Source of the DNA: Paramacrobiotus metropolitanus
Taxonomy: Eukaryota; Tardigrada; Eutardigrada; Parachela; Macrobiotidae
NCBI RefSeq assembly: GCF_019649055.1
Contig: NW_026570671.1
Span: 1 to 21,026 of the forward strand
DNA length: 21,026 bases
Reading direction: 5' to 3'
In this document: piece after piece, positions 1 to 18,030 of the stretch
How the letters are laid out: each line of letters starts with the position of its first letter
Numbering within the stretch: the first letter of the stretch is position 1
Translations under genes and position numbers: made by a program
The notes under the pieces: model-generated
What the model was told of the DNA's origin: nothing
Database searches by the model: none
What the model saw: only the letters and a program-made list of their open reading frames with translations

Positions 1-573
1 GACGTATGGGAGTAGGATCATACGCCGGATGTACGTACGGATGCTGACTGTCCGCCTTCCACCTGCAACACAACGGATAATCTAGTCAATCAATGCTGTG
101 ATTTGCTGTTCTCTTTTACTAGCGATGTATATGATGTCATAACGCGAAGTCTATATAAGTTCTTGTGGTGCCTAATATCGGTATCGGTAGTCTGAGATTT
201 ACTTCTGAGACTGCTTTCTAATTACGATTTCCTAGTGTTGTGAACTGTGATGTGAATTGGATAAAGAGGCAGCAATACTTGTTCCTACTGAAGTGCATAA
301 TTGTTCCCGGATTATCGCTTAGTATACAGGTTTGCTCGTGACACAATCGTCCTAGCTCTTGCCGATCCACACAGGACTCGCGACCGGATGTCGTAGTTGG
401 AGTGTTCCTGAGGGATTCCTGATTCTCTTGTTCCTGAATCGTTTGTCTTATTTCCACCATAGTTCTTCTGTTACAGTTTGAGAGTACGAGTGCCTACCGA
501 TTGAGCATTACAGGCGTGGAAGAGTAAAGATTGTTCATGGAGCCTTAATCGGCGTGAACGCTTATACACGACA
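1..573 (+). repeat. Probable 5' LTR (left end perhaps cut by the window)
   Basis: This stretch has no credible gene. It contains a TATA box at 152-159 and ends in CA at 572-573, directly before a TGG-starting primer-binding-site-like sequence. That is the normal order of U3, R/U5 and PBS at the left end of a Ty3/Gypsy element, and a Gag-Pol frame follows. I could not find the matching right LTR in the window, so the direct-repeat test that would prove an LTR is not met, and the left boundary is unknown. The 80-codon minus-strand ORF at 218-460 has no recognisable features and is treated as chance. Confidence 0.5.
152..159 (+). promoter_or_regulatory. TATA box of the LTR promoter
   Basis: TATATAAG fits the Pol II TATA consensus. 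It lies about 420 nt upstream of the presumed LTR end, so transcription would begin near 180-190 and R/U5 would cover the rest of the LTR. No other strong TATA element lies between here and the polyprotein start. Function is inferred from position. Confidence 0.5.
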
Positions 574-1362: not shown

Positions 1363-4300
1363 ATGTCGGGCGGTTCGATTCCTAGAAATCGCCCACCACC
1401 GCGTAAGATCCCAGATAACAAAGTGATTATTGGGGCGTACGATGGATCGAGAGCTCAGACAAGGTTCAAATTTAACGCAAAAGAAATCCCGTTGAATTTA
1501 ATGTACATCGCTCTTAATGTCGAACCACCAGAAGCACAAGATGCATTCTGTGGAAAGTCATGGATTGATTACCAGGAAATCAGGCGGTACTTAAATTCCA
1601 AAACGAGATTACCAGCACATTTTAAACCTTGGATTGAGTACGAGGGATGTATCCCTGAAGCTTACCTGGACATTACTGATGAGCAGTTTAAAGCTGCCTT
1701 GCAGGATGCAAACAGGTGGCTGCCAGAATATACGGAAGATTTGAATAGACGCAGAGAGGCGGCCCAAGCTGCACTCACAGCGTCAAAAGCAACCGGAAAA
1801 ACTCCAAAAAAACAGGCAGCAAATGAGCGCGTCACGCGCGGTGCCAAGGAGAGAATTCCAGCTCAGGCATCCGGTGCGATATTGGATGAACCCATATCGG
1901 AAACTCCAAGTGTGGCTGAGAGCCAAACAGAACCTCAGTCTTCCCAGTCGGACAATAATTTGACAGCGTTGGCGGCTGCGGATAAAGCAGACATATCCGA
2001 GGGATCAGAAACAAGAGCAAGCAAAAGTATTCGTGGTGGAACAATGACATTCCACCCGGCACAGTTAAAATTACACAGTTTTGTGTCAGAAAAAGATTTT
2101 GAGCAACCAGATGAGGACTTCCTTACTCAAGCTAGGGAAGTCGATGAGCAGTTAGCTGCGGCAGAAACTGACCAGGATGTGGGCTTGATAGTTCGGCAAA
2201 CTATGCCCGTATTGATCCAAAGTCTCCGCACGCTCATCGCATCTACAAAAACAAAAGTAGATGAAATGGGTAATACAATGTCTTTAGACGCTCGTGTAGA
2301 TGCGGAACGAAACGAAAAATTGAAATTCCAAAACGATTTCAATGAGATGCGTGTTAAATTTGAAAATGAACAAATAGAAAATGATAGATTGGCTAATGAA
2401 ATACGTATTGCGAATGATAATTTGCACAGTCTAAGACAAGCCAACAGAAATGCGGAGGCCGCATTTATTGCAATGCAAGATGAGCGCGATACTTTAAAAG
2501 ACACGAATCGTAATTTTGAAAAACAGTTGGAAGATGCCCAGAGAGATCTTTCAAACGCGAAAGCTACGATTGATGGCCTCAGTGCACAACCAGCACCGGA
2601 TTTAACGAAACAAATAACTGATTTGAACCAAAAGCTCTCGAAAGCTCAGAAAGATTGTAATTCTGAGAAAGATGCGCATAAATTAACTAATAAAAATTTG
2701 ACGGATGCGCAGAACCTGGTCACGAAACTTACCAAAGATTTGGATGATGAAAAGAAGCGGGCTAAAGATGCGGAAGACTCTCTACAGCGTGAACTCACAC
2801 AAGCAAGAGTGCAGCTGAATAACAAGTCTTCGGTCGGCCCGATGCATATTCCCAAGGAAAAGGATGATGCGTCCCAAAAGGAAATTGAGAGACTGCAGGG
2901 TCTGTTGATTACAGAGCGAGAGAATGTTCAAAAGGCCCAAAAGGAATTAAAAGATTCGAAAAAGGATAAAAGATGTGATAATTGTGAGAACGCGATTCAA
3001 GCGAAAAATACAGCACAGGCTGACGCATATGAAAAGTCTGAAAGGTGTAATCGACTGTATGAAGAAAATGCGCAATGCCGAAGGGAATGGCATGAAAAAC
3101 AAGATCAACTTACCAAGATGGAAGTGGATCTAAAGCAAGCGTTTGACGAACTTCGTCGGCTTCGAAATACAGATGCTGTTCTTGGCGGCGGTGAAGGATA
3201 CTTTCAAAGGGAAGCGCCGGTAGCATCTGGAGATGTATTACGCCCTCCCGCTTTCACACCATTTAATCCCCAAAATTTCTCGTCATACGTGGATCAGCCC
3301 TTAGCTACTGGCAGTAATCCGGCTGGCATCTTACGCAGGCCTAGGCAGGAATCACGAGTCGAATTCTCGGAGGGTCAGACTATGCTGCGTTCATCGTCAG
3401 AAAGTCAAATTCCAAGGGAAACGGCACCTGCCAAACAGAGGAAAAATGGCTCAACAGACTTACGCCAACAAATTCTGAAAAGAACAGCTGACGAATCTAG
3501 TCGCCAGATGCGAGGAACAGAAAACAGAGACAGTTCTGATACAGAAAATGAACTGATGGATGATGCCCTAATGGAGGATGAACACCGTCGCCCCAGTAGT
3601 ACGACCAGCAATGAGTCTATGTCCAGAAATCCTCAGCTGGAGGAATGGCTAAATAAACAGACCCAAATTTCGGATAGAACGACGCTTACACAAGAAAGCG
3701 TTGTTGAGCTTTTAGCGAAATTTGTGGAAAAGGACAGCGATAAAACGGTAGTTGGCATGAAGCTCCTTGCCTTTGACGATGCTCATCCAGAAAAAATTCA
3801 AAGATGGCTCATGAATGTTGAACAATGTAGAGCCACGAATAACTGGAATGATGAAACAACGTGTCGCAGAGTAATCGGTGCATTCACCGGTCCGTCTTTT
3901 CAATGGTTTGAAAAATTTTGGAAAGATAATAAAGGCAAATCATGGTCTGATTTCTTTAAGCCCGCTATTGTAGAGCACTTTAACGGCTCGCTGTCTAAGG
4001 CCGACATTCGTAGGAAAATGAATAATCGCAAATTAGAATTTTATGAACCAGTTCGTGCTTACCTGGATAGTTTCCTCCCATGGTTTGAGGAACTAAAAAC
4101 ATCGGATGAAGAGCAGGTGGAAGCACTCCTTGATGGCGTACAGGAGCATCGACCGGCATGGTTCCGTGAAATTTATAATGCGGCACCTAAAAATTATGCG
4201 GAATTTGAGAAGAAGTTACAGGAATGCGAAAAGTTATGGAAGCGCATGAATAAAGATAAGAAGACACCTGAATCAACTCAGAGAAATGCTCCTGCGGAGC

Positions 4301-7300
4301 CCAGAAGTGCCGGCAATAATAATAATAATTCGAATTATGAAAATCGAGGCGGCCGCGGTGGCTCGTCGCAGAGAGGAAATTATTATTCGAACCGGGGAGG
4401 CCGCGGAAATTATGGCAACAATCGCGGAGGATATTCACGTTCGTACACGGAGACAGTGATTCCTCAGCCGCAGAATTCGGTGGTTCCTGTGCAGCCTGTC
4501 CTGAATGTCCCCCAGCCGCAGTTTGTCCCTGTCCCGGTGTTCCAACAGCCACAATATGTTGAGCAACAACACCCGGTGCAATTTGCGCAGACTTTCCCTC
4601 AACCAATTCCTATGCAGGCTCCTATGCCTGTCCCAGTTCAAATGATGAATCCAATGATGCCGGTTATGCAGCCGCAATTCCAACAACCGGTACAGAATTT
4701 TGATCCACAGTACCAACAGAATGGCCCTGCGAATAACAATAATTATGATGGCGGTAATAATCGTGGAAATTACCGAAATAATAATACTAATTATCGCGGA
4801 CGAAGTGGCTATAACAACAACAATAATCGTCAGCAAAATAACCAGAATTACCGGCAAAATCAACAGGCCGGTAGTCAGCCTCCGTTTGATGAACGAAATA
4901 TCCTGAAGGATAAATGGCGAACAAATCGCGGAGTCGAAATTTGCTTCCGCTGTCATGGTCTTCATCCTGCAGCTGGTTGTACGAATCAATTTGTACTTCC
5001 CCGCCAGTATGAGCCATCCGCAGAATTATTGGCACGCTACAATAACCCGCAGCAGCAGATTAACATGATGGAGTTGGACTTACCGGCTGGTTTGTCTTCG
5101 CCGACGCCCCAGTGTAACAAAATGGAAGTCCAGGACTTTTCGCAGTACCCTCTAGCGGATCACGTGTGCCTGTTGCCGACGCTGGATGCCCAGGCTTGGT
5201 ATTCTGTAATTGACATAAATTATCAGAAAGTAAAAACCATGCTAGATACTGGGTCTAGCATTTCAGTCATGTCTCTCAAAATGGCTAAAGATTTAAAATT
5301 AAATATTCACCGCTGTCCTGATCACATTAAAGGCAGGGTTGTACATACAGCTTACCAAGGGAGACAGCTGATTGAGCCGTTGTCGGTAGTGGTCACAATC
5401 CACGAATTTGGGATGGCTTTTGAGCACGCAATGCTTGTGAGTTCCACTTTCGATAGGGACCACGTTGTTTTAGGTTTAGACTTTTTAGCTACAAAGCCTT
5501 TTATACTAGATATGAACACGATGACTTGGCGTCTCTCGCGTAGGCAGCCTAATGCACCGGCATTCTTACGTCGTGAAACTCACTTGATGTCGGATGTCAT
5601 CCGCTCTCACGATTTTGATCCATTAATTCCTGCGGGAGTTAAGCCGTCTCCTGCAATCCCTGCGTTGATGTTGACAGAGCGCATCGGTGTCGCTAAAGAA
5701 GCAAAATTCGTACCGTATGAGTCAGCTCATTTAATTCTAGCAAAGGCTGATCCAGAAATTTGTATTCTGCACTTACAAAAGGCTAAGCAGGAGTGGCCGC
5801 GTCCAGTCCCGTCGCCACCAGTGACAAAAGTGGTTGATGCCCCGGTGAAAACGGAAGTTAAAGAAACTATACCAGTCCAGCTAGCCCCGATTAAAAAGGG
5901 ATCCGATCAGCGTGATGAAGAGTTTGTGCGTAGTGTAGTACAGGAGATGATTCGTCAATATCTCCCGAGAGCAGCTTCCGTCGCGGATGAACCTGTTCGT
6001 CCTGCAATTAAACAAGAAATTAAAGTGGAGAAAAACCCAGAACCGAATCAAGTTCGTGGGGGAGGCGGTGAAACAATTGTAAATAATATGCAGTCAAGTT
6101 CGTGGGGGAGAGAACAGGCGTCTTCCCAGCCGCCAATTAAAAAGGAAAAAGTTGTTCAGCCGTCACCGGCAGGCAACCCGATTACCTCGTCTTCGTCATC
6201 GGTCAGTTCCGCGCCTAACTCTGGCTCCAGTCAAGTTCGTGGGGGTGACGACTCCCTGCAACTTCCGATTCAGATTTCGTCGGTGGACGCAGTGCTGAAG
6301 CAGCATCCTGCGGCAAAATATCTCTACATGGGTGTCATGGAAAAATCAGCGAAGGTGGTCGAATGTCTTAGCATGGATAACAAATTGCTTAATGTTATAC
6401 CGGTTGAGCGCGACCGCAGAGACGTCGATGAAATCCACGACTATCCGTCTTATATGGCACGCAATCCAGAGTTGAAGAAATGGATGACACCGATGGACAG
6501 GCCACAGGATAAACAGCTGTTTCCTTCAGAAAAAAGATTCCGTGATCCGCAGTTCTGGCGCGAAACTCAACAGCAGTGTGTTGATAGCCGGATGTGGTAC
6601 AAAATGTACAAGAAGCCGTCGCACGCTAATACGAATTTTACCAAGTACGAGATTAACAGATTCGTAATATGCGAAGGGATTTTATGTAGAGTACCTGATC
6701 ATTCTGGTGCTTGCCCAAGAATTTATGTGCCGCACCAATGGCGACAGAAATTAATTGCCTGCTTCCACGAAATTTTAATTCATAAGCAAGCGTATGGCCG
6801 GCATGAAAAGCTATATCCGTACTTGGTGAAATTATTTTACTGGCCGGACTGTATAATAGAAATTGAACGGTACGAGAAGAACTGCGACGTGTGTCGAAAC
6901 TCGATTAATGATCGCCGGCATTTTGAAACCTTGAAACGCACGGAGCAATTAAACGCACAGAAAGCTACAGGAAAACGTAAGGTTACCTTTTCCGTGGATA
7001 ACCCGGCACCAGCAGGTGAATTTGAAAACGGTAGCTTTGTTCCTGCAGATTGTATGAAACCCATTAACATCGGCCCGTGTCCGGTCTCCTATGAAGATAA
7101 ACAGGCGGAGAAGCAAAGAGAAATAAATTCTCAAATGATTAGTAACTCACCGCCGCCGAAGCCGTCTGAGTTCGTTTCGGAGGATGTCAGAGCGACCTAC
7201 GATGTTGCGACAAAAATTAATATTAATGAACAGTGGGAAATCTGGAATGACATTCAGAGACAAAAAGCATTGAGCGAATCTGCAGCCGTTAATCCAGTAC

Positions 7301-10300
7301 AACCCACCGTGGGAAACTACGAATCATCACCGGAATGTTCGGGAAGGAATTCTCCTAGGCGTAAAAAGTCCAGTTACAGCCGCAGAATTCGGCGGGAATA
7401 TGCAGAAAGAGAGGCGGCAAGCCAAATGTCAGCTGAGACGGTGCAGCCGGCACCGGTGTTGCAACAGCCGGTGGCTAAAAATTTGCCCAAACGGTCTCAG
7501 GACGTCCGGGAATCCACGGATATCCCGGCATGCGTGTATTCGAAGGATGTCATCGAGCTCGCGTACAGGGACGCCCATCTGAAACAGGCACAAGCACAGG
7601 TTGAAGTTAATTCGGTAGAACAGGATATTTACCGCTTCGAGCCTGAACCCGGTCCAATTGACTGTTTTAAAATGGAGCTGTTTCCAGCCTCGCCGGTTAT
7701 AATTCAGCCCCATTCACAGGGAATTATTCGTGCAACGACGTCGATGTCTGACGAACAGTTCATGGAATTTCAGGACGAATACCTGTACACCCAGCCGTTT
7801 CTCTACGAAGGAAAAATACCAGAGTCAAATAAAAACGCCGTATTACTCGATGGCGTCTTAACGTTAAATGAGTATGGTAATTGCCGAGTCTGCGTTGTTA
7901 ACGTTTCTGACAAACCGCTGGTTTTAAACGAAGAAACTAACCTTGGCGAAGTCGCGCTCGTCGATGCGGTCTATCAGATGGACTCGCCGGAGTTCCAGGA
8001 GAATTGTCAAGAGGCAATTGGTGGCATTGCAGTGCCGGAGAAAGTCCATGAATGTGTGGCCATGCAGTTGCCGCCACCTGCCGTTAGTGTCGTTGATCCT
8101 GAAACCGAAGAAACTTTTGCAAAAATCAAAGTTGGTGATATCTGTCCCAGCAAGGAGGAATTAAAGGCTATATTTTATCAGGCAAAATCGGTCTTACCGA
8201 CTAAAGCGCGTCCTGTGGGTTGTTGTACCATATATGAGCATTCAGTGGACACTGGTACGAGTTTGCCGGTCAGAACCCCTCCGTATCGGACATTGTTTGA
8301 AGACCGCAAATGGCTCCAGGCTAAAACCCAAGAAATGATTAAAGACGGTATCATTGAGCCAACAAATTCGGCGTGGGGCAGTCCCATCTGCATAGTGAAG
8401 AAGAAGGATAAATCCCGGCGTTTAACCGTGGATTTCCGTAAGCTTAACGAAAGATTAATGGGCAGCAGTTACCCGCTTCCCAGAGTTGACGATATATTAA
8501 ATGCCCTCGATAAAGCTACGGTTTTTAGCAAAATTGATTTAAAGAGTGGCTTTTGGCAAATAAAAATAAAACCGGAAGACCGGTGTAAAACAACAATGGT
8601 TGGCGAAGAGTTCACGTTTCAATACAAAGTCTTACCTTTTGGGATGAAGGACGCGCCTTCGGCTTTCCAGCGCGCCATGGATTTGACGCTTGCGAACATG
8701 AAGTGGAGGAACGTATTAGTTTTTATTGATGACATTATTGTCTTCAGTAAAAACCTGGCTGATCATATGCGAGACTTACAGGAGCTCTTTTTGCGGCTCC
8801 AGGAATGCGGCTGGACCATTAATCCTGAAAAGACAGAATTATTTGTAAATTCAATAACGTTCCTGGGTCACACGGTTGACCAGTTCGGTATCAGTACTGA
8901 TCCAGAGAAGATCCAGGCGGTTAAGGAATTCGGTCCTATTAAAGACAAAAAAGATATACTGCGTTTCCTAGGTATGGTAGGATATTACCGCCAATTTATT
9001 AAGAATTTTCAAGAGATCGCTGAGCCGCTTCAAAAGTTGATTCCTAAAAAAGTTACCTTTGAATGGGGAACGGATCAGTGTAGGTCTGTGGAACAATTGA
9101 AGGAGGCCTTGGTGACGGCGCCGGTCTTGGCCCGTTATGACCCAGAGGCTTTGTCGCGAGTTATCGTCGATGCCAGTACTATTGCTGTGGGTGCAGTTCT
9201 TATGCAATGTCCCAAGGATAAACCGACGGATGTGCCGACAAACTGGCGTCCTATCGCGTATCTAAGCCGAAAGTTGACTGAAACACAGAAAAGGCTCTAC
9301 TTCCCTACCGAGCTTGAGGCCTATGCAGTTATTTGCGCTCTCAAGAAATGGAAACACTATCTTTCCGACTATCAGTTCGAAGTACAAACAGATCACCAAG
9401 CGTTAGTGTTTTTAAATAATATGCGCGATGCCGCTGGCCGCCTTGGGCGCTGGGCGTTGTATATCCAGCAGTTCAACACTAAACCAGTTCAGATACCTGG
9501 CAAAGAGAATGTAATTGCCGACGCCTTGAGTAGAAATCCAGGAGAGCAACCGGAACCCGACTCCGACGATTCGGATATCGAATTTGACTATAGGCAAACC
9601 CACCCCTTCGCCGGTGATGCCGCGATGATCGAGTGTTGTTTCGCTATCCTGGAGAGAGACTATGTGGATATCCGCTTCGAGATGATGTCGGCCGAAGTTA
9701 AAGCCATTCCAGAGGAGGACATGAAAGCTTTTGATGAGGATAAGGTGCAGAAGTTGATTACTGACGATAAGGCTTCATACTGGGCTGAAGAGCAGTCTCG
9801 CGATGCGCGAATTGTCAGATGGCGGCTGCTCCTAGAAAATAGAAAGGAAAAGATGTCAGACCACGAGAAATTACACCTAAATAAATTTGTAGTGAAACAG
9901 GGCGTTGTTTATTATAAGTTCGAATTAAACCGGAAGATCTATTATTGCATGTATGTACCTGTTCACTGGCGGCTTCAGTTCCTTCAGGATAACCATGATT
10001 CCCCGTTAGCAGCACACTTGGGCGTCCTGGCCACCTATAAAAGGATGTACAAGTATTTTTATTGGCCTCGTATGTTTGAGTCTGTTAAAAGTTACTGTGC
10101 TTCGTGCCCGGCGTGCCTTGCACAAAATCCTCTTGCTATGGCACCGGCCGGTGCTCTCCAGTCCAATCCCACGGTTCCTCCTCGGTTAGTTTGGGCAATC
10201 GACGTTGCTCCGGCCCTCCCAACGACGGAATCTGGAAACAAAAACATAATTATTGCAGTAGATTACGGGAGCAAATATATAGTCGCGGAGGCAGTTGAGA

Positions 10301-11010
10301 GAAATGATGCTGCCACATTGGCGTTGTTCTTTTATCGCCGCATTCTCACAGTCTTTGGCATGCCTGTACACATCACCTCAGACCGCGGCAGTAATTTCAT
10401 GTCTGAGATGTTTCGGGAGCTTCTCGCTCTCGCGGGTGTTGCTCACGCACCGACGGCGTCAGGCCACCAACAGGGTAATGGGCTGGTCGAAAAACGTGTA
10501 GGGGAAATCAAAAAGGCGCTAGCGAAGTATGTGAACGAGCAGCAAAGTGACTGGGACATATTCCTCCCAGCACTTTGTGCTGCCTTTAACAGTAAGGTTG
10601 TGGAGCGAACGGGCCGCTCACCATTCTTCATGATGCACGGCACCGAGATGCGCTTACCGATAAATAACTTCCTGCCATTCGAAGAGGATTTTGTGATTCC
10701 TGCCCATGTATATGTACAGCAGATGCAGCGCGGCCTTGGTGAGGCCTTGGATTTAGTGAATGCTGAAGAGTTTCGTCATAAACTTAAAGATAAAATTAGA
10801 TATGATGCCAATATTTCACATGTATCGTATAAACCGGGAGATCAAGTTTTGGTATATGTACTTCATCGGAAAGTGGGGAAGAATCCATCCCTTATGCCCC
10901 GTTGGACTGCTGGATGGGAAATTGTGCGTCAGTCAGGGCCAGTGCATTATGTAGTAAAAAGTAACAGGCGCGGAATGTCAAAGTTGACACTGTCCATGTC
11001 AGCCGGTTAA
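1363..11010 (+). CDS. gag-pol: Giant Ty3/Gypsy-type Gag-Pol polyprotein (3215 aa)
   Basis: One uninterrupted frame encodes structural and enzymatic proteins of an LTR retrotransposon. Approximate residues: novel N-terminus 1-290; long coiled coil 300-605; Gag capsid-like helical domain 800-965; Asn-rich RGG region 983-1180; CCHC knuckle C1194-C1206; aspartic protease with D1295-TGSS and a later LGLDFL; extra H2C2 finger H1802, H1807, C1841, C1844; protease-to-RT linker 2097-2200; reverse transcriptase about 2280-2560 with FIDD at 2454-2457; RNase H about 2600-2720 with D2603; integrase H2C2 (H2878, H2885, C2915, C2918) and catalytic D2947, D3007, E3043, exactly 35 residues between the last two. 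Families are recognised from motifs. At about twice the usual Ty3 length, it is unusual in the coiled coil and the 900-residue protease-RT region. The frame ends early: the normal integrase tail continues in another frame. Confidence 0.95.
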   Translation: MSGGSIPRNRPPPRKIPDNKVIIGAYDGSRAQTRFKFNAKEIPLNLMYIALNVEPPEAQDAFCGKSWIDYQEIRRYLNSKTRLPAHFKPWIEYEGCIPEAYLDITDEQFKAALQDANRWLPEYTEDLNRRREAAQAALTASKATGKTPKKQAANERVTRGAKERIPAQASGAILDEPISETPSVAESQTEPQSSQSDNNLTALAAADKADISEGSETRASKSIRGGTMTFHPAQLKLHSFVSEKDFEQPDEDFLTQAREVDEQLAAAETDQDVGLIVRQTMPVLIQSLRTLIASTKTKVDEMGNTMSLDARVDAERNEKLKFQNDFNEMRVKFENEQIENDRLANEIRIANDNLHSLRQANRNAEAAFIAMQDERDTLKDTNRNFEKQLEDAQRDLSNAKATIDGLSAQPAPDLTKQITDLNQKLSKAQKDCNSEKDAHKLTNKNLTDAQNLVTKLTKDLDDEKKRAKDAEDSLQRELTQARVQLNNKSSVGPMHIPKEKDDASQKEIERLQGLLITERENVQKAQKELKDSKKDKRCDNCENAIQAKNTAQADAYEKSERCNRLYEENAQCRREWHEKQDQLTKMEVDLKQAFDELRRLRNTDAVLGGGEGYFQREAPVASGDVLRPPAFTPFNPQNFSSYVDQPLATGSNPAGILRRPRQESRVEFSEGQTMLRSSSESQIPRETAPAKQRKNGSTDLRQQILKRTADESSRQMRGTENRDSSDTENELMDDALMEDEHRRPSSTTSNESMSRNPQLEEWLNKQTQISDRTTLTQESVVELLAKFVEKDSDKTVVGMKLLAFDDAHPEKIQRWLMNVEQCRATNNWNDETTCRRVIGAFTGPSFQWFEKFWKDNKGKSWSDFFKPAIVEHFNGSLSKADIRRKMNNRKLEFYEPVRAYLDSFLPWFEELKTSDEEQVEALLDGVQEHRPAWFREIYNAAPKNYAEFEKKLQECEKLWKRMNKDKKTPESTQRNAPAEPRSAGNNNNNSNYENRGGRGGSSQRGNYYSNRGGRGNYGNNRGGYSRSYTETVIPQPQNSVVPVQPVLNVPQPQFVPVPVFQQPQYVEQQHPVQFAQTFPQPIPMQAPMPVPVQMMNPMMPVMQPQFQQPVQNFDPQYQQNGPANNNNYDGGNNRGNYRNNNTNYRGRSGYNNNNNRQQNNQNYRQNQQAGSQPPFDERNILKDKWRTNRGVEICFRCHGLHPAAGCTNQFVLPRQYEPSAELLARYNNPQQQINMMELDLPAGLSSPTPQCNKMEVQDFSQYPLADHVCLLPTLDAQAWYSVIDINYQKVKTMLDTGSSISVMSLKMAKDLKLNIHRCPDHIKGRVVHTAYQGRQLIEPLSVVVTIHEFGMAFEHAMLVSSTFDRDHVVLGLDFLATKPFILDMNTMTWRLSRRQPNAPAFLRRETHLMSDVIRSHDFDPLIPAGVKPSPAIPALMLTERIGVAKEAKFVPYESAHLILAKADPEICILHLQKAKQEWPRPVPSPPVTKVVDAPVKTEVKETIPVQLAPIKKGSDQRDEEFVRSVVQEMIRQYLPRAASVADEPVRPAIKQEIKVEKNPEPNQVRGGGGETIVNNMQSSSWGREQASSQPPIKKEKVVQPSPAGNPITSSSSSVSSAPNSGSSQVRGGDDSLQLPIQISSVDAVLKQHPAAKYLYMGVMEKSAKVVECLSMDNKLLNVIPVERDRRDVDEIHDYPSYMARNPELKKWMTPMDRPQDKQLFPSEKRFRDPQFWRETQQQCVDSRMWYKMYKKPSHANTNFTKYEINRFVICEGILCRVPDHSGACPRIYVPHQWRQKLIACFHEILIHKQAYGRHEKLYPYLVKLFYWPDCIIEIERYEKNCDVCRNSINDRRHFETLKRTEQLNAQKATGKRKVTFSVDNPAPAGEFENGSFVPADCMKPINIGPCPVSYEDKQAEKQREINSQMISNSPPPKPSEFVSEDVRATYDVATKININEQWEIWNDIQRQKALSESAAVNPVQPTVGNYESSPECSGRNSPRRKKSSYSRRIRREYAEREAASQMSAETVQPAPVLQQPVAKNLPKRSQDVRESTDIPACVYSKDVIELAYRDAHLKQAQAQVEVNSVEQDIYRFEPEPGPIDCFKMELFPASPVIIQPHSQGIIRATTSMSDEQFMEFQDEYLYTQPFLYEGKIPESNKNAVLLDGVLTLNEYGNCRVCVVNVSDKPLVLNEETNLGEVALVDAVYQMDSPEFQENCQEAIGGIAVPEKVHECVAMQLPPPAVSVVDPETEETFAKIKVGDICPSKEELKAIFYQAKSVLPTKARPVGCCTIYEHSVDTGTSLPVRTPPYRTLFEDRKWLQAKTQEMIKDGIIEPTNSAWGSPICIVKKKDKSRRLTVDFRKLNERLMGSSYPLPRVDDILNALDKATVFSKIDLKSGFWQIKIKPEDRCKTTMVGEEFTFQYKVLPFGMKDAPSAFQRAMDLTLANMKWRNVLVFIDDIIVFSKNLADHMRDLQELFLRLQECGWTINPEKTELFVNSITFLGHTVDQFGISTDPEKIQAVKEFGPIKDKKDILRFLGMVGYYRQFIKNFQEIAEPLQKLIPKKVTFEWGTDQCRSVEQLKEALVTAPVLARYDPEALSRVIVDASTIAVGAVLMQCPKDKPTDVPTNWRPIAYLSRKLTETQKRLYFPTELEAYAVICALKKWKHYLSDYQFEVQTDHQALVFLNNMRDAAGRLGRWALYIQQFNTKPVQIPGKENVIADALSRNPGEQPEPDSDDSDIEFDYRQTHPFAGDAAMIECCFAILERDYVDIRFEMMSAEVKAIPEEDMKAFDEDKVQKLITDDKASYWAEEQSRDARIVRWRLLLENRKEKMSDHEKLHLNKFVVKQGVVYYKFELNRKIYYCMYVPVHWRLQFLQDNHDSPLAAHLGVLATYKRMYKYFYWPRMFESVKSYCASCPACLAQNPLAMAPAGALQSNPTVPPRLVWAIDVAPALPTTESGNKNIIIAVDYGSKYIVAEAVERNDAATLALFFYRRILTVFGMPVHITSDRGSNFMSEMFRELLALAGVAHAPTASGHQQGNGLVEKRVGEIKKALAKYVNEQQSDWDIFLPALCAAFNSKVVERTGRSPFFMMHGTEMRLPINNFLPFEEDFVIPAHVYVQQMQRGLGEALDLVNAEEFRHKLKDKIRYDANISHVSYKPGDQVLVYVLHRKVGKNPSLMPRWTAGWEIVRQSGPVHYVVKSNRRGMSKLTLSMSAG
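6048..6247 (+). repeat. Three copies of a G-rich 15-mer inside the polyprotein
   Basis: TCAAGTTCGTGGGGG occurs at 6048-6062, 6094-6108 and 6231-6245. Copies 1 and 3 are read as Q-V-R-G-G, but copy 2 is in another frame and read as S-S-W-G. Identity across frames points to a nucleotide-level cause: recent duplication or a nucleic-acid signal. The region encodes low-complexity protein, so the coding constraint is weak. Confidence 0.6.
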
Positions 11011-11352: not shown

Positions 11353-11930
11353 TGAACGTATCCCAGCCGGGAGGGGCCAATCTGAACTAGTTGCCCCGGT
11401 GGCCAGTGATACTTCGCCAATTACCTGTAACGCAATGGAGATTGGGCCGGCGCAATACCTTCAGTGTCCCAGAACAGAAGATTCTACCTGCCCGGCTTGG
11501 GCACGCCCAATTGAGCAGTTCTGGCCACAAGGTGTAATATCCGATGACGCCCTTGATAAGCAGGAATTCTGGAGGTATCGCCAGATGGAGTGCAGTGACA
11601 TGATGTTGTGGGACGCCGTTGTTGATGGAGATTGTACTCGAGGAATCTGCATACGCGGCCTGGCATCTTCCTTTAGTGCTGAAAATAAAAGGCATTATTT
11701 GCCATTACGGCGAAAGAGAGGATATCCAGAAAAGAATCCCTAAAATTCTGATTCCGTTTCAATGGCGTAAAATATTAGTTGAATCTGTACACCGTCGGTT
11801 GCTTCACAAGTATGGCAGTACCATTTCGCCATATGATTACTTATATAAACACCTTCGGTTTTTCTGGCCTGAGATGAAGTCTGATTTAGCGAAATTTTGC
11901 CGAGTTTGTACCTTATGTAATCTGGATTAA
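11339..11930 (+). pseudogene. Third, frame-broken H2C2 zinc-finger module after Pol
   Basis: A frame open from 11339 has QEFWRYRQMEC and a Trp-rich segment up to about 11625. A second frame then carries LKIKGIIC, IPFQWRK and an H2C2 finger (HRRLLH, about 25 residues, then FFWPEM and CRVCTLC) ending at 11930. With one shift near 11625, the spacing from FW to the G-I-I-C strand equals that in the first H2C2 module of the polyprotein (both about 36 residues), so this looks like a third copy of the same layout. It may be the original extreme C-terminus of Pol or a separate downstream protein. The nearest start codons are weak, and the upstream part connects best to the Pol tail through another shift near 11350. 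Confidence 0.65.
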
Positions 11931-12271: not shown

Positions 12272-13117
12272 ATGTATCGCCCGAAAGTGCCAGCACACCA
12301 TTCCTTCATGCATGAGGATACTACGAGTTCCTCGGAGGATTTGGTGCAGGTTTTGGCAGATGTCTCGGCCGAAGTCCAGCCGCCAATGTACCCCGATCCT
12401 CATGTTGGATGGCCTGAACCAACATTTGAATGGTCCCATCTCATGGTGGATTGTGGCCTTCGTCCGTCTCCACATGACTATGCTCGTGGAGGAAAGAGTT
12501 ACATTCCCCCATCTGGTTTGATTAATTGTCCCTACAATCCGGACAGAGATTATGTGGAGCTCCATCCTGACACTCGATTGCGTTTCCGCGGCAAGATTTA
12601 CCATAATGGATCGGAGATGACGGTGGACAAATATAACCGCTTTGTTCACACTCTAGATTTGTCAAAGGATGCACACTATGCATTGTTACGTTACCTGCGT
12701 GTGGATTTCCGACAAGGATGGCTCATCGGGCAAATTGTGTGTGAACTCCGTCGGAACTTCGGCATCAATGTGGTGCGCAATCCTGTCGAGTTTCTCACTG
12801 CGTTGGATTATGTCCCGGGGGAAACGGGAGACCATGGTGCCGTTGTTACGCTCGTGGACGCGTATAATCAGCATATCGAGGAATTGGTTTCCAATATTGA
12901 TGAGGATCACCGCTTGGAAGCAGAGCAGCGTTATTTTGATCGTCTGAATGCAGCGGACCCGCGCTCGTCATCCCAACAACAGCAGCAATTGCAACAAAGT
13001 CGTTGGCTGTTACATGAAGGACAGGAAAAGCGTGGCCCGGGTAAGCTGGATGCTTCGATCGCCAAACGCCACCGTCCACGCCGTGATGACGACGATAACA
13101 TGGGCGCTGCGGTGTAA
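12272..13117 (+). CDS. Accessory protein of unknown family (281 aa)
   Basis: I do not recognise this protein. The start ATG at 12272 has A at -3 and is the first in a long open frame. The N-terminal 45 residues are Ser/Glu-rich, residues about 45-215 look like a compact mixed-composition domain with many Trp, Tyr and Pro (for example GWPEPTFEW and YIPPSGLINCPYNPDRDY), then comes a Gln-rich stretch near 230 and a basic tail (KRHRPRRDDDD) that could act as a nuclear localisation signal. There is no signal peptide or membrane segment, so it is not an obvious envelope protein. It follows Pol by 340 nt on the same strand and would need a spliced or internal transcript. Regulatory or capsid-accessory roles are possible but unproven. 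Confidence 0.8.
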   Translation: MYRPKVPAHHSFMHEDTTSSSEDLVQVLADVSAEVQPPMYPDPHVGWPEPTFEWSHLMVDCGLRPSPHDYARGGKSYIPPSGLINCPYNPDRDYVELHPDTRLRFRGKIYHNGSEMTVDKYNRFVHTLDLSKDAHYALLRYLRVDFRQGWLIGQIVCELRRNFGINVVRNPVEFLTALDYVPGETGDHGAVVTLVDAYNQHIEELVSNIDEDHRLEAEQRYFDRLNAADPRSSSQQQQQLQQSRWLLHEGQEKRGPGKLDASIAKRHRPRRDDDDNMGAAV

Positions 13118-13703: not shown

Positions 13704-14492
13704 ATGGACATGGAATTTTATAAATCAGAGCGCGGGCGTATGATCTGTGCGGAGCAGGACGAGCGGAAGCGCCGTAAGTTCGTGAGATTTTCTGACTCTG
13801 TTGCTTATGTTCTGGCGAACCAAGAACACATTTTCGAGTTTGTGCACTTTTGGCGTTCGCTGGATGCTCCATATATTTCTATCAGAGAACTGTGCAGGCT
13901 CTCTAATTCGGAAATCATGGCTTTGAATTTTGTAGAACCCGAGCCATTGGATTTCGAGGCTCAGGTGGCTTTAGAGATTGGGAACATCCGCCAGTCGGAG
14001 TCGCAGATGTATTACTTGAAGATCGGGTTTATTCTGTATCCCGACACTCCAGTTCGACGTGAAGCATCTGAACGTCTGCGGAAGGAATGTGGTTTGCCAT
14101 CCCTATTTAACCCGCCGGAAACTTCGCGTGAGCGTCATCAGCGCATGCTAGAACACAACAAGCGTGTGATGGAGGAAGAGCTCTGTTGTGTGGAGTGTGA
14201 AAATAATGGCCCAGGTTCATGCGGCCGTATGTTGTACACTTTGGACGATGAGCCTGTTCCAAATATCTGGGGATCTGGCAATCTGGAGGACTGGAAAGAG
14301 CCAGACTTAGATGTGGATGACTGGTGGGCAGAGCACAAGCTGGATTTTAAGGATCCGATGGAATTCTTGCCTGCGGATATGCTGTGGGTGGATGAAGATT
14401 TCGGTACTGACCAGAAACCGAAGAAGAAGCGTAAGCGCATAGTTGTGCAGCGTCACCCTCTGCGCGGGATTCGTTTTCCCTATCGGATGTAA
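13704..14492 (+). CDS. Nuclear accessory protein of unknown family (262 aa)
   Basis: I cannot assign a family. The ATG at 13704 has good context (ACAATGG), and pyrimidine-rich sequence precedes it. The N-terminus is charged (ERKRRKF near 22), followed by a Phe/Leu-rich probable helical region to about 130. A Cys cluster (C161, C162, C165 and one near 173) may bind metal. The C-terminal third is rich in Trp and Asp (KEPDLDVDDWWAEH). It ends in a very clear monopartite nuclear localisation signal, PKKKRKR at 239-245, close to the SV40 large T type. A nuclear regulator or RNA/DNA-binding adaptor of the element is a reasonable guess. It lies 586 nt after the previous accessory gene, same strand. 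Confidence 0.8.
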   Translation: MDMEFYKSERGRMICAEQDERKRRKFVRFSDSVAYVLANQEHIFEFVHFWRSLDAPYISIRELCRLSNSEIMALNFVEPEPLDFEAQVALEIGNIRQSESQMYYLKIGFILYPDTPVRREASERLRKECGLPSLFNPPETSRERHQRMLEHNKRVMEEELCCVECENNGPGSCGRMLYTLDDEPVPNIWGSGNLEDWKEPDLDVDDWWAEHKLDFKDPMEFLPADMLWVDEDFGTDQKPKKKRKRIVVQRHPLRGIRFPYRM

Positions 14493-15844: not shown

Positions 15845-15915
15845 GAGCGACCCCGCTAGTATAGTAGAGGCTTCCGTTGCTTCGTCATTGGAGGTCGGAG
15901 GTTCCAGTCCACATA
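15845..15915 (+). ncRNA. tRNA-like unit 1
   Basis: A-box-like TAGTATAGTAG at 15857-15867 and B-box-like GGTTCCAGTCC at 15900-15910; between them CTTCCG can pair with CGGAGG. T-rich sequence (ATTTTTCG) follows at about 15941. Acceptor stem not convincing. Confidence 0.45.
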
Positions 15916-16075
15916 AAAATGCGATTTTGTAAATGTCCTCATTTTTCGTTTTTATTTCATGAATCGTTATATTCTTATTCGTGGGATTTAATATGGGGAA
16001 TATTGGCTGACTCGCTGTTGAGAGGTGTTAAAATGAGTACTGCCAGCTGTGTTATTAGTATTATTTTTGTCAATG

Positions 16076-16166
16076 ACTCTTGTAGTCGAGTGGTCCAGTA
16101 AAGAGGACAATACCAGGCGAATCCGTTTACCTGTTGCTGGTCCTGGGTTCCAATCCCTAAAAATCA
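16076..16166 (+). ncRNA. tRNA-like unit 2
   Basis: A-box TAGTCGAGTGG at 16083-16093, close to class II (Ser/Leu) tRNAs, and B-box GGTTCCAATCC at 16146-16156 flanked by GGG/CCC pairs. ACCAG/CTGGT forms a long arm between. Followed by T6 near 16189-16194, a Pol III stop. Confidence 0.55.
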
Positions 16167-16323
16167 AAAGCATTTTCTTAAAACCTTCTTTTTTGTGCTT
16201 GAATTTTTGCATTTGTTTGTACTTACACATTCGGTGTGATACCGTTAATTCCTTATTAGTTTTCAGCGAGCGGCACATAGTTGTACAGCCTTTCCCGTGC
16301 GGATTTTCGTGTTTTGCTGTGAG

Positions 16324-16405
16324 ACTTCGTAGTGTAGTGGTTGTCCGCCTTGTCTCCGCTACGACTCGGTCAATTTAGGGCCTTGGGTTCGAAACCCTTG
16401 CAAGT
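16324..16405 (+). ncRNA. tRNA-like unit 3
   Basis: A-box TAGTGTAGTGG at 16330-16340 and perfect B-box GGTTCGAAACC at 16386-16396 with GGG/CCC at the T-stem. ACTT 16324-16327 pairs with AAGT 16402-16405 as a partial acceptor stem, giving an 82-nt unit. T6 follows near 16429-16434. The most tRNA-like member. Confidence 0.6.
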
Positions 16406-16534
16406 AATGCACATTTCTTAAAACCTTCTTTTTTGCGTTTTATAATGTCACAGTACCATCGAATACGTATTACGGTTGACCGCTGTAATTTTACGTTCCT
16501 CTCCGACGAGCGAATTCAAAAATAACTGTCGTAG

Positions 16535-16617
16535 AACAGCGTAGAATAGTGCTTTGCACCGTTGAACTGCAGCAATGGGGAAATGAAACGGTTGCGGGTT
16601 CAAGTCCCTTACAGCTA
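16535..16617 (+). ncRNA. tRNA-like unit 4
   Basis: A-box-like TAGAATAGTGC at 16542-16552, B-box GGTTCAAGTCC at 16597-16607. A 6-bp arm CCGTTG/CAATGG with loop AACTGCAG (16559-16578) matches in position and fold the arm of unit 7, with a compensatory T-A to C-G change and a G.T wobble. A T8 tract follows near 16645. Confidence 0.6.
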
Positions 16618-16793
16618 ATTTGCAATTTTAAGAAACTTACCTTTTTTTTCACATATTTTTGTTTTCGTCTTGGGAAAAGTATTGTTAACAGTTCCCAGAA
16701 TGTCAGAATTAAACTCAAAGAGCTGGGCGTAAAATTGTATACACACTCAATGGTTAACATTGCACTTGGCCGTATGTTTGTCTGTATTCGAAT

Positions 16794-16888
16794 GACTTTG
16801 TAGTTCAGTGGCTATGAATGATGGCCATTCGCCTCATGTTCTACCTCCTAAACGGCTAGTCTTAATCTCAGGGTTGCATGCTGCATGT
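16794..16888 (+). ncRNA. tRNA-like unit 5 (degenerate)
   Basis: Good A-box TAGTTCAGTGG at 16801-16811, as in Gly/Val-type tRNAs, but the B-box (GGTTGCATGCTG near 16872) is poor. A long T tract follows at about 16901. Confidence 0.4.
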
Positions 16889-16981
16889 TAAAAAACTACA
16901 TTTTTTTTTTCTCCCCTACATTTTTGTACCATTGTGGGATGAAGAGTTAATCGTTTGGTGCCTTATTGCAGTAGGGTTAAA

Positions 16982-17007
16982 TATACACGACATGGCGCTT
17001 CCGGTGT
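16982..17007 (+). repeat. Second copy of the LTR-end/PBS junction
   Basis: ATACACGACATGGCGC then CCGGTGT matches 564-589 at the LTR/PBS border, differing only in the 2-3 nt between the two blocks. It lies about 35 nt before tRNA-like unit 6. Read on the minus strand it ends GCGCCA, complementary to the start of the PBS. Confidence 0.65.
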
Positions 17008-17034
17008 TGAATCTAACTCGGCTTTAGCGTAGAG

Positions 17035-17115
17035 TACCTTGTGGCGTAGTGGCTAGACTGAGAATCCATACCGACCCGCTTCTCGCAAGTCTAGAGTTCG
17101 AATCCTAAAAGTTAA
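17035..17115 (+). ncRNA. tRNA-like unit 6
   Basis: A-box TGGCGTAGTGG at 17042-17052 and B-box AGTTCGAATCC at 17095-17105. Between them CTAGACT-GAGAA (17053-17064) pairs with TTCTC (17080-17084) and AGTCTAG (17088-17094), a 12-bp hairpin interrupted by a 3-nt bulge. A T-rich block similar to units 2 and 3 follows at 17125-17143. Confidence 0.55.
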
Positions 17116-17235
17116 TCCGTTTAATTTAAAACCTTCTTTTCGGTTTTATATTTTAAATTTATATGCAGTATTATGTTGGCTTCGAGATTGGTAATTTTAT
17201 GGTCATTCCCGACGAGCGAATTTTAAAGTTTAACT

Positions 17236-17322
17236 TCGTAGATTGTAGTGGCGTAGTGCACTGAACTGTTGAACCACAACAACAGGTGCAATGAAGGTTC
17301 AGGTTCGAAACCCCTTGAAACT
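17236..17322 (+). ncRNA. tRNA-like unit 7
   Basis: A-box TGGCGTAGTGC at 17249-17259, B-box GGTTCGAAACC at 17302-17312. The arm CTGTTG/CAACAG (17266-17285, loop AACCACAA) is perfect and is extended by GCAC/GTGC across a bulge. Paralogue of unit 4, including the upstream CCGACGAGCGAATT at 17209-17222. Confidence 0.6.
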
Positions 17323-17519
17323 AAATTGCATTTTCTGACATCCTACTTTTTCGTTTTTATATTTTGTTGGCACTCTTGTGGAAATATTTCAGTTGTCGGC
17401 GCGAATTCTGCAATCATGATGGTGGTGAAATCTTAAAATTATCAGCTGCTGCAGCGGTGAATTTTCACTACATCGTGATTTTCGTAGTACAGCCTTTGGT
17501 GATTGCCAAATTAAAAGTA

Positions 17520-17602
17520 TAATGTGGTATAGCCATGCTAGCGTATGGGCAAGAGCAGGATTTAGTTGTCCACCTAGATGCAAGGTTCAATCCTGCGTGA
17601 AT
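17520..17602 (+). ncRNA. tRNA-like unit 8
   Basis: A-box-like TGGTATAGCCATG from 17525, B-box GGTTCAATCC at 17584-17593. GCAGGATT 17555-17562 pairs perfectly with AATCCTGC 17589-17596, a different arrangement from a canonical cloverleaf. Confidence 0.45.
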
Positions 17603-18030
17603 ACAGATTTTGCGAGTGTTAAGAGTTTCTCTCCATTCTTTTCCTTTCTGTGGTGACTGTTACCTTGCTCCTTGACGGAATATTAAAATTGTTTTAGCAT
17701 TTGATTCACGGTTGCAGGTGTGATAATTGATTTTAAACTGTTTATTTGTCACTCTGCACTGGAATTCACTGTTGTTACTATTGCGCATGCTGTTACACCG
17801 ATTTTATTGCGGTTATTCAAATGCTACAAAATCCAAAATTAAACTCGAATTAAAGATCTGTCCGACCAGCAAAATTTGCGACTAACATGAGAATCTGTAC
17901 GCATGAGAATTACGAATAGGAGTGAGATTAAAAGATTAAACGGAAGAAACAAAAGTCGGCCGAAAATCAGATTCAAATTATCAAACAGCCGCGGGAAACG
18001 CATTATACGCATACGTTACAGCGCTGCTAT
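17603..18030. other. Non-coding gap between tRNA-like array and antisense block
   Basis: No gene is seen. TTTATT near 17739 and near 17803 reads AATAAA on the minus strand and could end the antisense transcripts. Otherwise unremarkable, A-rich to the right. Confidence 0.35.

Follow-up and report, generated by a model that had tools for sequence, protein, structure and literature searches.

We describe an array of eight RNA polymerase III (Pol III)-type units inside a long terminal repeat (LTR) retroelement of the tardigrade Paramacrobiotus metropolitanus. The stretch analyzed, which we call the window, spans the whole of C451 (21,026 bases), one of the 533 contigs that make up a 169.8-Mb assembly. 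The array occupies positions 15845-17611 on the + strand, in the internal region of the element about 15 kb from its 5' LTR, and each unit consists of an A box, a B box, and a T-run, the B box being degenerate in unit 5. The likeliest reading, and in our judgment a probable one, is that the element carries them as eight type 2 Pol III genes independent of one another; this reading is drawn from comparison of DNA sequences. The units are listed below, with counts referring to the aligned copies of the array described further on.

15845-15928, + strand: unit 1; A box at 15857 (7/7 in 38/38 copies), B box at 15900, first TTTT at 15925.
16071-16194, + strand: unit 2; A box at 16083, B box at 16146, TTTT at 16173, second T-run at 16189-16194.
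16318-16434, + strand: unit 3; A box at 16330, B box at 16386, T-run at 16429; absent from 6/40 arrays.
16530-16649, + strand: unit 4; A box at 16542, B box at 16597, TTTT at 16626, T-run at 16642-16649; paired arm at 16559-16578.
16789-16910, + strand: unit 5; A box at 16801, degenerate B box at 16872 (GGTTGCATGCT), T-run at 16901-16910.
17030-17140, + strand: unit 6; A box at 17042, B box at 17095, T-run at 17137; hairpin between the boxes at 17053-17094.
17237-17350, + strand: unit 7; A box at 17249, B box at 17302, TTTT at 17331 and 17347; paired arm at 17266-17285.
17527-17611, + strand: unit 8; A box at 17539 (6/7), B box at 17584, TTTT at 17608.

The units stand out clearly from simulated sequence. 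A scan accepting an A box at 6/7, a B box at 8/10, and a TTTT no more than 75 nt away returned eight matches in the array, corresponding to seven distinct units with unit 7 counted twice. Simulation of 500 first-order Markov sequences with matching dinucleotide composition yielded 0.316 matches on average and never more than 3; the remainder of the window contained one match on the + strand and one on the - strand. The sequence of its B box, GGTTGCATGCT, caused unit 5 to be overlooked; we included it since the unit is conserved and its A box perfect. In units 4, 7, and 8 other A-like sites nearby (16529, 17246, and 17525) were picked by the scan, but we adopted 16542, 17249, and 17539 after visual inspection and in view of their conservation. 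The eight box pairs with T-runs that a first-pass annotation of this DNA had placed here are therefore borne out, with the reservation that the B box of unit 5 is degenerate.

We searched the host genome with the array, scoring 40 of 59 candidates, so that rarer places may have been missed; 48 matches, with eight second fragments merged, gave 40 places, and the alignment accordingly has 40 rows (the window and 39 copies). All 40 of these places adjoin the LTR or leader of the element or its 3' region. It had been considered that the array might be a host satellite or short interspersed element (SINE) residing mainly outside the element; because every place examined lies within a copy of the element, a dispersed repeat of either kind is unlikely. 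With unit 8 alone as query we obtained 40 matches at 93-100% identity, these being the best 40 of 43 candidates. All eight units are present in 28/40 arrays, 4/40 are incomplete in the stretch covered, and in 8/40 units are missing (unit 3 in six arrays, unit 2 in one, and units 4-6 in one).

Conservation follows the units and their boxes closely. Across the 40 aligned arrays mean diversity was lowest in A boxes (0.036), followed by T-runs (0.056), B boxes (0.064), and the sequence between boxes (0.075), and rose through leaders (0.100), trailers (0.113), and spacers (0.151) to flanks (0.206); these class means are slightly off, the T stretch of unit 1 having been misplaced (the true T-run is in the trailer) and the A box of unit 8 set at 17546. 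The contrast between unit cores and the rest was equalled in 3/1766 circular shifts, and that of the boxes alone in 7/1766. Per-copy scores, taken as the best within a few bases of each listed position, agree with the diversity in showing that A and B boxes are kept in other copies, a prediction of the first-pass annotation: the A box matched at 6-7 of 7 positions in all copies except two of unit 4 and one of unit 7, and downstream of it seven units have a B box scoring mostly 8-10 of 10. Unit 5 lacks such a B box; its GGTTGCATGCT is identical in 34/38 copies and its A box is 7/7 in 37/38. The A box of unit 4 in the window is a minority variant of a form common to 29/38 copies. Unit 8 is the most conserved unit, with an invariant run at 17535-17561. 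That the units are kept better than the sequence around them suggests that the element may make its own small RNAs.

The T-runs are arranged as in type 2 Pol III genes, following the B box with none before it. Wherever a copy has a given unit, its B box is followed by a TTTT in the next 75 nt (33-38 of 33-38 copies for each unit); the median distance is 32 nt for two units and 13-18 nt for the remaining six. Within units TTTT occurs only 6 times in 23,193 bases, versus 1827 times in 42,388 bases outside, a roughly 170-fold depletion per base; these occurrences are in units 2, 4, and 5 (2/37, 2/38, and 2/38 copies), with 0 of 33-38 in each other unit.

The spacing of the units is ordered. A boxes lie 718 nt apart in units 2 and 5, 712 nt in units 3 and 6, and 707 nt in units 4 and 7, and repeats are found 708 and 706 nt apart, in agreement with a previously noted 709-nt period of three units. 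By spacing, this order suggests a duplicated block of three, from 2-3-4 to 5-6-7. By pairwise sequence similarity only the pair 4-7 stands out (z 20): pairs 2-5 (z 8) and 3-6 (z 7) are no closer than 3-7 (14), 2-3 (12), or 2-6 (12). Duplication has thus probably multiplied at least unit 4 into unit 7, and perhaps the whole block, and single units can apparently be lost. About 50 nt upstream of the A boxes, short stretches are common to units 1 and 6, 3 and 8, and 4 and 7; these are pairwise only and we do not claim them as an element. The strings CGGTG and TATACAC were not found in 31 host tRNA upstream regions.

The units are not tRNA-like in the structural sense in which they had been so named. 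ARAGORN found 0 tRNA genes, Rfam gave no tRNA match, RNAalifold run on each unit gave no common cloverleaf, and the five-pair T stem is complete in 0 of the 33-38 copies of each of units 1, 2, 3, 4, 6, and 7; acceptor stems were assessed visually. In these six units the pairs in and beside the B box are mostly kept despite the incomplete stem, which fits a B box retained as a promoter and not as a tRNA arm. Some local structure is nonetheless present, as the segments between boxes fold more stably than 22 controls (mean z -0.70 versus 0.00, Mann-Whitney P 0.010), with paired arms in units 1, 4, 6, and 7. The arm shared by units 4 and 7 has six pairs and an 8-nt loop and lies 17 nt past the A-box start, near the location of a tRNA anticodon arm; all six pairs form in 27/38 copies of unit 4 and 35/38 of unit 7. 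The compensatory change reported in this arm is confirmed at its second pair, where C-G predominates in unit 4, U-A predominates in unit 7, and both units also show U-G. RNAalifold returned the shared arm in unit 7 and not in unit 4. The arm of unit 1 is fully paired in 34/37 copies.

We suggest that TFIIIC would bind the A and B boxes, and that Pol III would start about 12 nt before each A box and stop at the T-run. The products would be eight uncapped, U-tailed RNAs of about 85-120 nt with no tRNA fold, made from the integrated copy independently of a Pol II promoter in the LTR. If such RNAs are stable and act as RNA, their likeliest role would be that of small regulators or decoys encoded by the element. 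Because inter-box sequence is almost as well conserved as the B boxes, it is probable that these RNAs are themselves important.

Several observations weigh against this interpretation. The boxes would also be explained by TFIIIC binding with no function for an RNA, and the B box is poor in unit 5 (5-6 of 10) and variable in unit 6 (6-9 of 10). Whole units fold no better than shuffled sequence (mean z -0.74 to +1.04 over 13-14 distinct copies each), so trailing hairpins like those of murine gammaherpesvirus RNAs, which had been proposed by analogy, find no support; covariation within copies is slight, with at most one two-sided pair per unit by RNAalifold, and the twelve-pair hairpin of unit 6 is complete in 14/38 copies. 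A TTTT near a B box is weak evidence alone because TTTT is common outside the units (43 per 1000 bases). AAAA is also depleted within units, with 15 in 23,193 bases versus 667 in 42,388 (about 24-fold per base), so the scarcity of TTTT is partly, although given the weaker AAAA effect not wholly, a matter of composition; in the window alone, the complete lack of TTTT within units has P 0.09 by shuffling. Finally, the copies are related and are the best-scoring 40 of 59 candidates, and counts over them are not independent.

The most serious alternative is that the array functions at the DNA level, its clustered sites for TFIIIC and Pol III forming a boundary or anti-silencing island whose RNAs are by-products. 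This is plausible, if clearly less probable than a role for the RNAs: A boxes are the best-kept parts and there is no strong RNA fold, and in fission yeast B-box barriers are described as needing TFIIIC, and a tRNA-gene (tDNA) barrier as also needing Pol III (PMC2040200). A pure binding array, however, would not need the conservation of inter-box sequence (0.075) and T-runs (0.056) relative to spacers (0.151), nor the near absence of TTTT within units, and it is the conserved inter-box sequence that leads us to favor the RNA. That the units are captured tRNA-derived SINEs or tRNA genes, decaying as passengers, is improbable. Their A and B boxes do look tRNA-derived, those of unit 3 resembling tRNA-Val (compared by eye with the host tRNA-Val(TAC)). 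The units, however, evolve more slowly than spacers and flanks, and all 40 places examined are within the element with no independent insertion among them, which speaks against one of the possibilities that the first-pass annotation had offered.

Pol III RNAs are made by a few vertebrate retroviruses, single Pol III promoters are found in short non-autonomous LTR elements, and the tRNA-miRNA-encoded RNAs (TMERs) of murine gammaherpesvirus 68 (MHV68) are eight in number. In layout the array is similar to the last of these and to bovine leukemia virus (BLV), whose genomes each carry several compact Pol III genes of type 2, and the arms between boxes in units 1, 4, 6, and 7 might recall the precursors of microRNAs (miRNAs). 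We nevertheless regard it as quite unlikely that the units are Pol III-made pre-miRNA hairpins as in BLV or MHV68, since whole units contain no unusually stable hairpin. The BLV miRNA genes, too, are compact and independent type 2 genes in a retroviral genome, where T-runs accompany A-like and B-like boxes, and mutation of A boxes, B box, or terminator lowers their expression; as described, they form pre-miRNA hairpins and have the terminator between the A and B boxes (PMC4267658). Here, by contrast, the T-run follows the B box and the carrier is a gypsy-type LTR element. TMERs, also a cluster of type 2 Pol III genes, are reported with a tRNA-like 5' structure, a triplicated overlapping A box, and miRNA hairpins (PMC8223928); we looked for both tRNA-like structure and hairpins in our units and found neither, and MHV68 is a DNA virus. 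The miRNAs of bovine and simian foamy viruses (BFV and SFV) are similarly Pol III-directed small RNAs of a retrovirus (PMC7693620), but are hairpins, those of SFV being located in the LTR (PMC7104284).

Closer to our carrier in kind, the TRIMp3 elements Helenus, Ajax, and Cassandra are LTR elements whose Pol III promoters derive from tRNA or 5S sequences, and the tRNA-like sequence of Helenus is, as here, not complementary to the primer-binding site (PBS); they are described as short and non-autonomous, with the promoter in their LTRs (PMC10886601), in contrast to eight internal units accompanied by a Gag-Pol frame. Fission yeast B-box and tDNA barriers resemble the array as TFIIIC sites, clustered in the B-box barriers, and those described are not part of a mobile element (PMC2040200). 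The array is thus like BLV, TMERs, and TRIMp3 in having Pol III-type units in a virus-like element, while lacking the hairpins, tRNA fold, or LTR location that characterize them. We found no description of a comparable array in an autonomous LTR element among the titles and abstract openings examined from the open-licence PMC literature, which is not proof of absence.

The carrier has the following principal features.

1-573, + strand: 5' LTR, its first base (T) just outside the contig; the 3' LTR is found in the sister contig C337.
574-586, + strand: PBS, 13 nt complementary to the 3' end of host tRNA-Lys(CTT) plus CCA.
1363-11010, + strand: Gag-protease-reverse transcriptase (RT)-RNaseH-integrase frame of 3215 aa, with gag-asp_proteas, RVT_1, RT_RNaseH, Integrase_H2C2, and rve domains.

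Judged by LTR ends, PBS, and domain order, the carrier is an LTR element of Ty3/gypsy type: its LTRs run TG...CA, a tRNA PBS is present, and its domains are in the order protease, RT, RNaseH, integrase. The LTR probably begins with TG because the 5' flanks of eight distinct copies diverge at window position 1 and every flank ends in T. Window 1-573 is 98.4% identical to C337 23522-24092, the 3' LTR, which is preceded there by TTCGTGGGGG; the two LTRs of C337 are about 97% identical and the element there is about 24 kb long. The RT-integrase part has 103 related proteins at 25-40% identity, and the Gag part (residues 1-700) has no relative at E <= 0.001 among 2783 candidates scored. Querying the host with P0062 (Bursaphelenchus) gave 20 gypsy-type loci, the best 20 of 1930, none of which is less than 25 kb from an array place.

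Some further observations concern the coding region and leader. The zinc-binding domain of integrase (H2C2) has three matches, at window 6727-6897, 9955-10131, and 11619-11930, of which one is usual and two are weak (below the Pfam cut-off), in the protease/RT interval and in a separate frame downstream of integrase. Downstream of pol there are open frames at window 12272-13117 and 13704-14492 and at L086 2-577 and 1084-1878 (281, 262, 192, and 265 aa), the last rich in R, G, and N; none of the four has a significant Pfam family, a single match at E 0.066 falling below the cut-off. Between PBS and gag a 27-nt motif occurs three times (829-855, 1176-1202, and 1220-1246).

The PBS bears on a further proposal of the first-pass annotation, that of replication primers; that the units would supply these for reverse transcription of the element itself is, in our view, the least probable of the alternatives. 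Host tRNAs were taken from 30 loci (63 scored among 6550 candidates), and the 13-nt PBS pairs with the 3' end of tRNA-Lys(CTT) plus CCA with one G-U in the window and perfectly in the nine other distinct copies looked at, represented by ten loci of which two are one place; because the PBS fits this host tRNA, the units are probably not primers. When up to 2 mismatches are allowed, the array has just two occurrences of the tRNA-Lys 3' end, one at 16503 upstream of unit 4 and the other at 17209 upstream of unit 7; no unit has a matching sequence at its 3' end, the T stem is incomplete in the six units tested, and in the whole window there is no clear excess (26 matches versus 17.8 expected). In favor of priming, the array contains a second block resembling the junction of LTR and PBS:

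16982-17008, + strand: 27-nt block like the LTR end plus PBS (563-589), upstream of unit 6, with its first 17 nt identical.

This block scores 37, exceeding the maximum of 23 among 400 pieces drawn at random from the window. Of the 38 copies with letters there, 37 retain the 17-mer without change, and the block contains one of three invariant runs of at least 14 nt in the aligned stretch. It could be a second, imperfect annealing site for tRNA-Lys. Separately, TTCGTGGGGG, the 10-mer found ahead of the 3' LTR in C337, also occurs three times within the Gag-Pol frame, at 6053, 6099, and 6236; the copy at 6236 is followed by TGACG, which is also found at the start of the LTR. Among nine sequences (the window and 8 of 39 other places) the copies at 6053 and 6236 are exact in eight and one G shorter in one, and that at 6099 is kept in fewer. 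These internal copies resemble a central polypurine tract (PPT); the first and last also encode a repeated QVRGG peptide.

A broader proposal can be made more tentatively, and we place it somewhat short of probable: that this is an autonomous gag-pol LTR element with a selected cluster of eight Pol III genes and internal copies of its replication-start signals (the LTR-end/PBS-like block in the array and the PPT-like sequences in pol), and that it may steer its own replication or its host through small RNAs independent of the LTR promoter. If true, long LTR elements with their own Gag-Pol, too, can evolve dedicated small-RNA genes, and some 40 natural variants of the array are available for testing their function.
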